From the NCBI RefSeq assembly GCF_000379025.1, contig NZ_KB900617.1, positions 648,316-712,315 on the forward strand: DNA of 64,000 bases. Direction: 5' to 3'. How positions within the stretch are numbered: position 1 is the first letter of the stretch; every line of letters starts with the position of its first letter. Origin of the DNA: Orenia marismortui DSM 5156 (GTDB lineage Bacteria > Bacillota > Halanaerobiia > Halobacteroidales > Halobacteroidaceae). This document shows, piece after piece, positions 811-61,020 of this stretch. Below the pieces are notes generated by a model, which was not told where the DNA came from, searched no databases, and saw only the letters and a list, made by a program, of their open reading frames with translations. The position numbers were made by a program, and so were the translations under genes.

Positions 811-1005
811 AAAAAACCCCCTCCCTAATAGTATCTCTACTATCAGGGACGAGGTTACCCGCGGTTCCACCCTGTTTAATCCTATTTACTAGGATCCACT
901 TTATTATCAGTTACTCCCAAGTGCCCTTCATTAGTTTTTATACTAGGCTTACACCATCCCTAGCTCGCTATAAAACTACTAACTAATTACTCTTCTTGTT
1001 CATCA
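811..1005 (-). promoter_or_regulatory. T-box riboswitch (glycine) with terminator, upstream of glyQ
   Basis: On the minus strand this reads as a complete T-box leader. An AAGAGTAA start and AGCGAG segment lead to the apical GATGGTGTAAGCC segment. The specifier region follows as GAAGGGCACTTGGGAG, with the GGC glycine codon at 923-925. The invariant antiterminator core AGGGTGGAACCGCG lies at 860-873. The competing terminator hairpin CCCTGATAGTAG/TACTATTAGGG (814-849) is followed by GGGGGTTTTTT. Known logic: uncharged tRNA-Gly stabilises the antiterminator and permits readthrough to glyQ(S). Confidence 0.95.
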
Positions 1006-1038
1006 TAACTATATTTCTTGAATTTTGCTTTAAATATA

Positions 1039-3614: not shown

Positions 3615-4964
3615 TTATGTCAAATAAGGCAAAAACAATCTTGCTAAGCTAAAATAAATAAATAATCCTGATGCATCAATTACAGTTGTAATAAAAGGAC
3701 CAGCAGCTACTGCAGGATCTATTCCTAAATAATTTAAAATAAAAGGAGTCGTTGTTCCTACAAATGTTGCAGATAAAATATTACAGAACATAGCTAAGCC
3801 TACAACAACACCTAGCATGTAATTTCCTTGCCATACTAAAGCAACTAGACCTATTATTAAACCACAAATTGTAGCCACTAAACTCCCAACCTTAACTTCG
3901 TTAAATAAATGTTCCCTAAGATCTTTAGTATTTAAATCTCCAGTTGCCAATCCTCTAACAACAATTGCTAAAGATTGAGTTCCTGCATTTCCGCCAGTAC
4001 CAGCCAAAGTAGGCATAAACAAGGCTAAGGCTACCACTGTATTTAAAAGATCAGAAAAAACATCAATTACAGAACCAGACAAAATACTAGCAAATAAAAG
4101 AACTATTAGCCATGGCGAACGCTTCAAAGAAGCTTTAACTATTGTATTATTCTCATCATCAAAATCAACCTCTGTTGTTGCTGCCATCTTATAGATATCT
4201 TCTGTAGCTTCTTCTTCAATTACATCTATAATATCATCTACTGTTATTATTCCCAAAAGCTGTTTCTTATGATTAACTACAGGAACTGCCAATAAATCAT
4301 ATTTTGAAATAATCCGAGCTACCTCTTCTTGATCTAAATCTAGCCTAACATTGATTACTTTTTTCTGGATCAGATCTTTTATTCTAGCTTCAGGAGATGC
4401 AGTAATCAACTCTCTCATAGAGAGAACTCCCATTAACTCTTTAGTCTGACTAACCACATAGATATAATAAATCATCTCTGCTTCTCTAGCTATATCCCTG
4501 ATGATATTTAGTGCATCTCTAACCGTTTTACCCTCTTTAATAGCAATATATTCAGTGGTCATAATACCACCAGCACTATCTTCATCATAGCCTAAAAGGT
4601 TTTGTATCTGCTCTGCATCCTCTTTTTTCATAAGCTTTAATAGTTCTTTACTTTTTCCAATTGATAAAGGACCTAATAAATCTGCTATATCATCAGCATA
4701 CATATTATCCAAAATTATCTTTAATTCTTTTGGTGCTAACAAATTTAGAATAGTATGCTTATCATCAAAATCTAATTCAGCTAAAGAATAGGCTAATTTA
4801 TCAACTGGAATAATAGGAATCAATACTTTAATCTCATCCTTTGATAGTTCATCTATTAATTCAGCTATATCTGCTGCATATAAGTCTTTTAATAAGACCT
4901 TTAAAATTTCCATATCATTAATTGAAATCTTATCTTGAATCTCTAAAATTAGACTTTCCTTCAT
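3615..4964 (-). CDS. mgtE: magnesium transporter MgtE
   Basis: Mg2+ channel/transporter of the inner membrane, gated by cytosolic Mg2+. Domain order: an N-terminal superhelical MgtE_N domain (about 1-130, with repeated DLYAADIAELI and MYADDIADLL turns); a CBS pair (about 135-255, starting at DSAGGIMTTEYIAI); a linker helix; and the five-segment membrane domain (about 280-449, with LAGTGGNAGTQS). Length 449 is normal. No M-box riboswitch fits in the 7-base gap to era, so it probably shares the era transcript. Confidence 0.96.
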   Translation of the reverse strand: MKESLILEIQDKISINDMEILKVLLKDLYAADIAELIDELSKDEIKVLIPIIPVDKLAYSLAELDFDDKHTILNLLAPKELKIILDNMYADDIADLLGPLSIGKSKELLKLMKKEDAEQIQNLLGYDEDSAGGIMTTEYIAIKEGKTVRDALNIIRDIAREAEMIYYIYVVSQTKELMGVLSMRELITASPEARIKDLIQKKVINVRLDLDQEEVARIISKYDLLAVPVVNHKKQLLGIITVDDIIDVIEEEATEDIYKMAATTEVDFDDENNTIVKASLKRSPWLIVLLFASILSGSVIDVFSDLLNTVVALALFMPTLAGTGGNAGTQSLAIVVRGLATGDLNTKDLREHLFNEVKVGSLVATICGLIIGLVALVWQGNYMLGVVVGLAMFCNILSATFVGTTTPFILNYLGIDPAVAAGPFITTVIDASGLFIYFSLARLFLPYLT

Positions 4965-36430: not shown

Positions 36431-38908
36431 TTATTTAACAACAATATTAACTAATCGCTTAGGAACAACAATTTCTTTGATTATCTCTTTTCCTTCAAGA
36501 TACTCTTGTACCTTCTCTTGCTCTTTAACAACTGCTTTTAATGATTCTTTATCAATATCAGCAGAAACCTCTACCTTATCTCTTACCTTACCATTGATTT
36601 GAACAACAATTGTGATCTCATCTTTTTTAGTTGCCTCTTCATCATAGCTTGGCCAACTTTGAAGGTGAATACTCTCTTCATATCCTAAGTTAGACCATAA
36701 CTCCTCAGTCATATGTGGAGCAAAAGGAGCTAATAGTAAAATAATGCTTTCAACTACCTTTTTATATAATGGATAATTAATATTTTCATCCACTTTGCTT
36801 AGATATTTATAAGTTGCATTAACTAATTCCATAATTGAACTAATTGCAGTATTAAATTGTTCTCTTTTAGAAATATCTACCGTTACACTCTTAATTGCAA
36901 TGTGTAATTGTCTGTGTAACTCCTGTTCTAGCTTAGTATTTAGTTCAAAATCAGAATTAGCTTCCTTAAGTCCATTAATATGTTCAGATACTAATCTCCA
37001 AACACGATTCAAGAATCTTTCAGCACCTTCTACTCCTTCATCACTCCAATCTAAGTCTCTTTCTGGAGGAGCAGCAAATAGAATAAATAGACGAGCTACA
37101 TCAGCACCATAATTATCTAGAATCTCCATAGGATCAACAATATTACCCTTAGACTTAGACATCTTAGCTCCATCTAATAATACCATTCCTTGAGTTAATA
37201 ACTTATCAAAAGGTTCTTTATAATCTACTAAACCTTGATCACTAATGAATTTCATAAAGAATCTTGCATAAAGTAAATGTAGGATTGCATGCTCAATTCC
37301 ACCAATATATTGATCAACATTCATCCAATAATTAGCTCTATCTTTATCAAGAATCTTATCAGCTAAATCTGCACTAGTATATCTTAAATAATACCAAGAT
37401 GAATCAACAAAAGTATCCATAGTATCTACTTCACGCTTGGCATCTTTTCCACACTTTGGACAAGTAGTATTTACAAAGCCCTCTACATTAGCTAAAGGTG
37501 ATTGACCTTGCCCAGTAAATTCTACATTAGTAGGTAACTCTACTGGCAAATCCTCTTCTGGCACTGCTACAACTCCACAATCATCACAATAGATCATTGG
37601 AATTGGAGTTCCCCAGTATCTTTGGCGAGAAATCAACCAATCTCTCAAACGATAATTTACCTCTTTATTACCAATGTTATTACTTTCTAAATGATCAATA
37701 ATTTTATCAAAAGCTTCTGAGAAAGTTAATCCGTTTAAGATGTCAGAATTAACGATCTTACCTTTCTCTGTATAGGCTTCAGTTAATTCTTCTCCAATCA
37801 ACTCTTCTCTTTCACCTTGAACAACAACTCTAATTGGCAAGTCATATTTTTTAGCAAATTCAAAGTCACGTTGGTCATGAGCAGGTACTGCCATAATAGC
37901 TCCTGTTCCATACCCCATCAATACATAGTTAGCAATCATAACTGGGATTTCTTCATTAGTTAAAGGATTGATTGCTTTAATTCCAGTATCCATACCTAGC
38001 TTTGGAGCATCAGAACCCGTTCTTTCTTCTTCATCCTGTTCTTGCATCTTAGCTATAAAATCCATTACCTCTTGCTCTTTATTACTTCCACTAACTAACT
38101 TCTCTACTAATGGATGTTCAGGAGCTAAAACCATATATGTTGCCCCATAAATTGTATCAGGACGAGTTGTAAATACTTCTATCTCTTCATTACTACCTTC
38201 AATCTCAAACTTAATCTGAGCACCTTCACTACGACCAATCCAATTCTTTTGCATTGTCTTAACTCGTTCTGGCCAATTTTCCAATAGTTTATGATCAGAT
38301 AATAACTCTTCAGTATAATCTGTAATCTTAAAGAACCATTGTTCTAAATCCTTATCTATAACTTTACTGTCACATCGTTCACATTCTCCATCTATCACCT
38401 GCTCATTAGCAAGTACTGTTTGGCAGCTTGGACACCAATTTACATTTGCTTTCTGTTTATATGCTAATCCTTCTTTGTACAATTGTAAGAATAACCATTG
38501 AGTCCATTTATAATAATCAGGATTACAAGTAGCTACTTCACGGTCCCAATCATAACTTAAACCCATCATCTTAAATTGTTTTCTCATATTATCAATATTA
38601 TCTTGAGTCCAACTATTAGGGTGAATATTACGCTTAATCGCTGCATTCTCCGCTGGAAGTCCAAAAGCATCCCACCCCATTGGATGTAAAACATTAAAAC
38701 CTTCCATTCTCTTATAACGAGCAAATACATCTCCTAATGAATAATTCCTCACATGACCCATATGTAAATTTCCTGATGGGTAAGGAAACATCTCTAATAC
38801 ATAATACTTAGATTGATCTTCTTTTACTTCACTCTTATATAGCTGACTATCTTCCCAGTTTTTTTGCCATTTTGGCTCTACATTCTTAAAATCATATCTT
38901 CCTTTCAT
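36431..38908 (-). CDS. leuS: leucyl-tRNA synthetase
   Basis: Class Ia synthetase charging tRNA-Leu. HIGH-like motif in [24 protein letters not shown], and the CP1 editing domain with [12 protein letters not shown]. Zn motifs CPSCQ and CERC, then [24 protein letters not shown]. The ATG at 38908 follows AGGTGA; an in-frame TTG sits one codon upstream. 825 residues. Preceded by a T-box leader. Confidence 0.98.
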
Positions 38909-39102
38909 CAAATCACCTCATCTTATTTTTAATTAATTCTAAAATATAGTATAAAATTTTGAACAATAATTATAGATTGTTTTTAGTATCCCCTTGTAAA
39001 CTAACTATGTATTAATATAGAAAAACCCTCACCCCTAATAAAGATAATCTCTTTAGCAGGGACGAGAGTTTCTCGCGGTACCACCCTAATTGATATATAC
39101 CA

Positions 39103-39137
39103 TTGGCTACTAGTCTTCAGCTATTAGCTACTAACTA
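39103..39137. repeat. heptad block inside the leuS leader, TAGCTAN type
   Basis: Five 7-bp units in the plus direction: TTGGCTA, CTAGTCT, TCAGCTA, TTAGCTA, CTAACTA (exactly 35 bases). It lies 15 bases from the T-box antiterminator core, within the transcribed leader. Confidence 0.75.
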
Positions 39138-39285
39138 ATGCTTTAACTGCACAACACTTGTTGCTGCCATGGCCTTAATGGCCTCATAACCAAAACCTAC
39201 TCTAAACTTTAGATTAGATGATTGGTACGCCGCCCTCAATGGGCAAATACCAAAATCATCCTTCCAGTATTTCAATCAAAGATTT

Positions 39286-39361
39286 TGGTGGAGATAACCG
39301 GGTTCGAACCGGTGACCTCTTGTCTGCCAGACAAGCGCTCTCCCAGCTGAGCTATATCCCC
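39286..39361 (-). tRNA. tRNA-Ala (anticodon GGC), CCA encoded
   Basis: Complete cloverleaf on the minus strand. The acceptor stem GGGGATA pairs with TATCTCC and has the G3:U70 alanine identity pair. The D arm is GCTCAGCTGGGAGAGC, and the anticodon stem-loop CTTGTCTGGCAGACAAG gives anticodon GGC. The T arm is CCGGTTCGAACCCGG, followed by discriminator A and encoded CCA. It lies in the same direction as leuS, between the leuS promoter and the T-box antiterminator. Confidence 0.97.
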
Positions 39362-39499
39362 ATAATATATCCACTCTTCAACAATTTAACGCTTGTTAAT
39401 CGTATAGACTACTACTACTTCATCTATATAGCTCCAAGGCGAGTTCAGTTTACACTTACTACTCCTCTTCTACACCATGCTAATATTCAACTACAAATT

Positions 39500-39528
39500 A
39501 TTATAAGTTACAGTTTTTCCTTTGTCAA
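39500..39528 (-). promoter_or_regulatory. consensus sigma-A promoter for tRNA-Ala / leuS leader
   Basis: TTGACA (39523-39528), 17-base spacer, TATAAT (39500-39505): a full consensus match on the minus strand. Transcription should start near 39493 and read through the T-box-like segment and tRNA-Ala toward leuS. Confidence 0.88.
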
Positions 39529-60904: not shown

Positions 60905-61020
60905 CTCCTCTACCTCAGACTCGCCGATAACTAGGTACTCATAAAGAGTTTTTCAAACCCGCATCGTGCGGTTTTGGTAGTGGCTTATATAAACCACCTA
61001 CGAATATGAATTTTAACACA
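60905..61020 (-). promoter_or_regulatory. candidate L21 (rplU) leader RNA
   Basis: On the minus strand the leader has GTAGGTGG and CCACTACC paired elements, a CCGCAC(GA)TGCGG hairpin (60960-60974), and an AAACTCTTTATGAGT hairpin just before the ribosome binding site. This arrangement fits the L21 autoregulatory leader found upstream of rplU in Firmicutes. Identification by eye only. Confidence 0.6.

Follow-up and report, generated by a model that had tools for sequence, protein, structure and literature searches.

A tRNA-Ala(GGC) gene nested in the Stem III loop of a leuS T-box leader

Results

Organisation of the leuS leader

The window, a 64,000-nucleotide stretch of Orenia marismortui DSM 5156 (contig NZ_KB900617.1), encodes leucyl-tRNA synthetase on its minus strand; leuS homologues were found in 99 of the 101 genomes searched. 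In the direction of transcription, the leader upstream of leuS consists of a promoter, Stem I, Stem II, Stem IIA/B, the start of Stem III and a tRNA-Ala(GGC) gene. About 190 nt of other structure then precede the end of Stem III, an antiterminator, a terminator and leuS. All features lie on the minus strand:

39500..39528, minus: promoter TTGACA-17-TATAAT, 12/12 consensus match, at the same position in relatives L014-L018 and L020
39431..39481, minus: truncated Stem I with S-turn AGTAGTA and a co-varying cap AGU-GUAA-ACU at 39456-39447 (Rfam T-box alignment)
39441..39443, minus: specifier codon CTC (Leu), in the context GAACTCGCC
39403..39430, minus: Stem II, TATAGA..TCTATA (CTATATAGA..TCTATA; Rfam T-box alignment)
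39386..39402, minus: Stem IIA/B pseudoknot region, CG...CGTTA (Rfam T-box alignment)
39372..39376, minus: RRRNG purine string GAGTG before Stem III (direct reading; motif defined in PMC7583486)
39365..39371, minus: Stem III 5' arm GATATAT, pairing 7/7 with 39092-39098; the stem co-varies in relatives
39286..39361, minus: tRNA-Ala(GGC) with encoded CCA, G3-U70 and A73 (ARAGORN; Rfam, 67 bits)
39245..39289, minus: hairpin of the tRNA 3' ACCA and trailer (ACCAAAATC) with GATTTTGGT, 9 bp in the window
39224..39251, minus: family-specific mini-hairpin GGTA..GCCC-ATTGA-GGGC..TACC, with relatives in L016, L018 and L020
39092..39098, minus: Stem III 3' arm ATATATC, then AA at 39091-39090 (direct reading; co-variation in relatives)
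39058..39087, minus: antiterminator with T-box AGGGTGGTACCGCG (Rfam T-box alignment)
39021..39068, minus: intrinsic terminator CTCTCGTCCCTGCTAAAGA...TCTTTATTAGGGGTGAGGGTTTTT, overlapping the 3' half of the antiterminator (direct reading)
36431..38908, minus: leuS, leucyl-tRNA synthetase (ORF)

Apart from this promoter, a scan of the minus strand gave a single promoter-like site, which is weak (9/12) and lies beyond the terminator at 38963; there is none between Stem I and the tRNA. We infer that the promoter at 39528-39500 serves as the single start for T-box, tRNA and leuS. The UGGN-bulge antiterminator (AGGGTGGTACCGCG...CGTCCC) and the terminator that overlaps it, which a simple terminator scan missed, together span 39087-39021.

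The Rfam T-box model (RF00230) recognises the leader in two pieces. The 5' piece (39481-39325, 42.1 bits) covers Stem I, Stem II and Stem IIA/B before the tRNA, and the 3' piece (39283-39055, 37.9 bits) contains the antiterminator after it. With the element split by the tRNA and the additional ~190 nt, neither half reaches the gathering score of 93. Elsewhere in the window, the glyQ T-box pointed out in the original prediction (842-1012, minus strand) is an ordinary one that scores 105.8 bits and has no tRNA inside, and a ribosomal protein L21 leader lies at 60907-60983 (minus strand, 38.1 bits). No tRNA was found near nine other T-box loci of the window genome.

Stem I of the window leader is capped solely by AGU-GUAA-ACU, three pairs and a tetraloop. 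The apical double T-loop, an optional part of RF00230 that binds the tRNA elbow, is absent, and in the genus only 17 nt lie between AGTA and GAACTC. This truncation is common to the family, and the cap pairs found across it are AGU-ACU, GGU-ACU, AGC-GCU and GGC-GCU, with compensatory changes in relatives such as AGC-GUUA-GCU, GGC-UUAA-GCU and AGC-AGCA-GCU. Reading by eye, we also found a truncated Stem I together with a nested tRNA in Coprothermobacterota (L066, L085) and Caldisericota (L088), and a full Stem I with the apical motif AGAGA...GGTG in most other members. Among the matches listed, the specifier is CTC in 100 of the 104 relatives in which it could be parsed, in agreement with the leuS gene downstream.

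The original prediction had described a leuS T-box containing a mature-type tRNA-Ala, and sequence and comparative evidence support it. Its coordinates and its reading of the leader were right with respect to the full consensus promoter, the CTC leucine specifier, the Stem I without its elbow-binding part, the complete tRNA gene, the long hairpin behind it, and the standard antiterminator and terminator before leuS. It had also named a lack of T-box homology in 39431-39467 as a finding that would speak against it. This stretch is T-box-like, being aligned by Rfam as Stem I with specifier and conserved in genus and family, and the minus strand holds no second promoter that would separate the tRNA from the T-box.

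The nested tRNA

The tRNA folds into a cloverleaf and possesses a GGC anticodon, G3-U70, A73 and a CCA end. Among the matches listed in other genomes (see below), G3-U70, the alanine identity pair, and A73 occur together in 112 of 113 nested tRNA-Ala(GGC) genes, and CCA is encoded in most of the nested tRNAs. In the window genome the nested gene is the only tRNA-Ala(GGC) detected, and this was also the case in seven relatives whose leuS leader contains the gene. Two further genomes (G003, G005) have no tRNA in this leader and a single GGC gene elsewhere, which in G003 lies beside other tRNAs. Most of the named genomes tested have one GGC copy and two Ktedonobacteria have two; these counts are lower bounds, as the pattern used did not match every tRNA-Ala.

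The tRNA occupies the loop of Stem III

Following Stem IIA/B, the leader reads GAGTG-GATATAT-TAT-[tRNA]...GGT-ATATATC-AATTA-GGGTGGTACCGCG. The RRRNG...AA signature flanks Stem III in T-boxes and forms part of the discriminator that senses aminoacylation (PMC7583486). In the window it encloses the two arms around the tRNA. As the arms pair 7/7, with RRRNG before and AA after them, the tRNA is located in the loop of Stem III. The original prediction was therefore correct that the tRNA is nested in the T-box, but had placed it in the linker.

Comparison of relatives substantiates this helix. In an anchored test, the Stem III arms were perfectly paired over 5 bp in 63 of 104 distinct loci among the matches listed, as opposed to a mean of 17.5 and a maximum of 28 perfect pairings in 2000 arm swaps. 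The swap control ignores relatedness and is conservative, since relatedness makes swapped arms pair more often. Exchanges among relatives include G-C/A-U and U-A/C-G. With a looser test spanning 40 nt, the contrast was weak (mean helix 6.6 vs 5.1). In free folding, Stem III is not part of the minimum-energy structure of the window leader; the arm pairing does appear in compact relatives such as L014, L065 and L103.

In compact relatives the tRNA usually begins ~9-15 nt from the start of the 5' arm. The Rfam model can span the nested gene. In 14 of 17 loci checked it gave a single above-threshold, full-length match (93.7-133.2 bits), with the tRNA match wholly inside, as in L047 (T-box 3859-4142, tRNA 4016-4088). 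L015 likewise scores 94.1 bits. Six further loci from other lineages gave single matches below threshold (55-86.7 bits, E 2e-9 or better).

Two additional hairpins follow the tRNA in the window's family. The hairpin between ACCA/trailer and the GATTTTGGT-type arm measures 9-14 bp in L016, L018 and L020 and is absent from the compact relatives L014 and L015. We speculate that it may keep the nested ACCA off the UGGU bulge of the T-box, or delay 3' maturation. The mini-hairpin at 39224-39251 occurs as a single copy in the window and in the genome; in L018 and L020, mini-hairpins with an ATYGA pentaloop are apparently present in tandem copies.

Nested tRNAs are widespread in leuS leaders

About 85,000 species genomes were searched for any tRNA beside a T-box antiterminator, with a pattern that requires a T-arm 20-50 nt ahead of GGGTGGNACCRCG. 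It found at least 120 loci; among the matches listed, 115 have a called tRNA. The counts from this pattern are lower bounds, as it misses the long insert of the window and variants such as L222 (GACCGAT[..tRNA..]ATCGGTC-AAGTCAGCGTGG). Among the matches listed, 113 of the 115 called tRNAs are Ala(GGC), one is Ala(CGC) and one Thr, and leuS lies downstream in 108 of 115, within 700 nt in 96 and at 0.9-2 kb in 12. The seven loci for which leuS was not found comprise six Ala(GGC) loci with less than 1.7 kb of downstream sequence to look in, and the Thr locus. The latter, a Frankia tRNA-Thr without leuS in 4.2 kb (L129), was treated as a chance match, as were three matches in which no tRNA was called (L049, L052, L067). 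The Ala(CGC) locus, which lacks Stem I (L126), was treated as a degenerate relative, and L059 and L068, at the edge of the available sequence, were left out.

Going by record names, the 113 listed Ala(GGC) loci belong to Bacillota (57), Chloroflexota (33), Thermomicrobiota (8), and for the remainder to Armatimonadota, Atribacterota, Coprothermobacterota, Actinomycetota and singles elsewhere, some of which are possibly misnamed bins. The leuS T-box with a nested tRNA-Ala occurs in at least eight to ten phyla. In an even sample of the window's phylum, the pattern matched 83 of 398 genomes and 53 of 267 genera (about a fifth), and a reversed control pattern matched none. leuS was placed in 23 of these 83 genomes, with 22 matches upstream of the gene, 20 of these no more than about 200 nt away. 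When the phylum of L058 (Chloroflexota/Thermomicrobiota type) was sampled, the pattern was present in 19 of 201 genomes. The original prediction had proposed comparing related leuS leaders for a tRNA-Ala insertion; the tRNA is indeed present in relatives, but its distribution points to an old, widespread architecture instead of a local insertion.

Some loci show further peculiarities. In L073, a branched-chain aminotransferase-like ORF lies between the nested T-box and leuS, and L117 has a similar 1 kb gap; in L095 the intervening ORF is acyl-CoA synthetase-like. At G000:C4:331233-331718 (L007, L011), two T-box matches on the same strand lie ~90 nt apart, a possible tandem T-box.

Intermediate states

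Of the window's genus, L014 and L015 are compact (GGTATGT[..tRNA..]ATATACC). L016, L018 and L020 contain the tRNA and extra hairpins. In the same family, L017 has an intact T-box (95.6 bits) with an ordinary Stem III without tRNA and its GGC gene elsewhere, and so defines the empty site. Many other relatives likewise have a leuS T-box without a tRNA. In a sister family (L021, L023, L027, L029), a promoter, tRNA-Ala(GGC) and a T-box-like terminator stand directly before leuS, and no Stem I, specifier or antiterminator was found upstream of the gene. leuS thus seems to lie behind an unconditional terminator in these loci, so that the linkage can persist without sensing. In L218, L220 and L221, the leucine T-box is complete and has no tRNA in its Stem III; tRNA-Ala(CGC) and tRNA-Ala(GGC) immediately precede it.

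A LeuS tree of 131 sequences (FastTree, a quick method) broadly separates Chloroflexota-type from Bacillota-type sequences. The nested state is scattered through both parts, and at least 16 changes are needed to account for the presence of the tRNA. Because tRNA, site, specifier and gene are the same throughout, we infer an ancient shared origin followed by many losses. The unit as a whole may also have been transferred horizontally.

Discussion

We propose, with a probability of about 0.75, that the locus is a transcription-attenuating leuS T-box in which a functional tRNA-Ala(GGC) gene has replaced the loop of Stem III, and that both are made as one transcript which still switches. In this model, one promoter would give rise to one nascent RNA. 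The tRNA, transcribed before the terminator decision, would be made constitutively, whatever the leucine status. With charged tRNA-Leu(GAG), the conditional T-box terminator would end a short transcript and at the same time serve as the terminator of the tRNA unit. Uncharged tRNA-Leu would pair with CUC and the UGGU bulge, letting the polymerase read into leuS.

The tRNA-Ala would be released by RNase P and 3' processing, with cuts in the loop of Stem III. Since the predicted cuts spare the Stem III helix and the purine strings outside it, the leader could finish sensing before excision or in spite of it. As Stem III closes around the tRNA, excision would leave a helix that joins both halves, and sensing would not necessarily be lost as soon as the tRNA is cut out. 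In read-through transcripts, excision would in addition separate the leader from the leuS mRNA. In Bacillus subtilis, RNase J cleaves the T-box leaders of thrS and thrZ, and RNase Y affects many T-box leaders (PMC3542257); by analogy, excision of the tRNA could play a similar role in turnover.

Could the T-box have decayed, leaving only promoter, tRNA-Ala and terminator at work, with no sensing of tRNA-Leu and leuS expressed by leaky termination? The truncated Stem I would fit, and the sister family illustrates such an end state, having neither Stem I nor antiterminator. Against this, the window leader retains the CUC specifier, S-turn, Stem II, RRRNG...AA, UGGU bulge and overlapping terminator, as do its relatives throughout the family, with compensatory changes, and natural T-boxes whose Stem I is truncated depend on Stem II (PMC7583486). 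We therefore consider decay unlikely. Less credible still is a coincidental overlap of two independent units, in which the tRNA has a promoter of its own or is a mere neighbour of the leuS leader: the stretch between Stem I and the tRNA lacks a promoter-like site, the spacing from the Stem III 5' arm is short in compact relatives, and the same tRNA, site and gene recur across phyla.

The nested tRNA might instead be an active part of the switch, such that its folding, 3' end, binding by AlaRS or cleavage by RNase P feeds into the leuS decision. Its position in Stem III, within the discriminator (PMC7583486), and its nearly constant Ala(GGC) identity would suit such a role, as would its own ACCA, which could compete for the UGGU bulge and which the family hairpin pairs with UGGU. 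Common descent alone explains the constant identity, however, and the many leuS T-boxes of relatives that lack a tRNA also speak against it, which makes an active role doubtful. The same degree of doubt attaches to a more specific version, a second sensor that tunes leuS to tRNA-processing capacity or alanine tRNA supply in addition to leucine. The period in which the T-box can respond would then be set by the cut in the Stem III loop or by base pairs between the nested ACCA and the UGGU bulge, and the dedicated anti-CCA hairpin of the window's family would counter the latter.

Under the proposed model of a nested tRNA in a switching T-box, one leader RNA appears to be both regulator and tRNA precursor, tying the supply of an often sole tRNA-Ala(GGC) to the control element of leuS. 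In the open-access publications searched, we found no tRNA described within a T-box, and to that extent a riboswitch that senses tRNA and also serves as a tRNA precursor is undescribed. The arrangement raises the question of how the discriminator works once RNase P cuts its Stem III loop, and it suggests that T-box databases annotating Stem III may hold many unnoticed nested tRNAs. With the tRNA found inside the T-box, just upstream of it, or kept after T-box loss, and with T-boxes that lack it, the evolution of the arrangement is directly testable.

The leader shares with class I transcriptional T-boxes (RF00230; e.g. leuS and glyQ leaders) Stem I with specifier, Stem II, Stem IIA/B, Stem III with RRRNG...AA, the UGGU antiterminator bulge, the overlapping terminator and the aminoacyl-tRNA synthetase gene. 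It differs in that its Stem III loop holds a whole tRNA-Ala(GGC), in the window's family together with ~190 bases, and in that Stem I of the window lacks the apical module. In polycistronic tRNA-mRNA transcripts, a tRNA is excised from an RNA that includes an mRNA as well. The same is proposed here, except that this tRNA lies within a riboswitch helix and precedes a conditional terminator. The actinobacterial class II T-boxes with truncated Stem I, described as mostly translational (PMC7583486, PMC7778990), resemble the window leader in that Stem I ends just above the specifier loop and Stem II is kept; the leader studied here is distinguished from them by its leuS gene, its Leu specifier, its transcription terminator and its nested tRNA.
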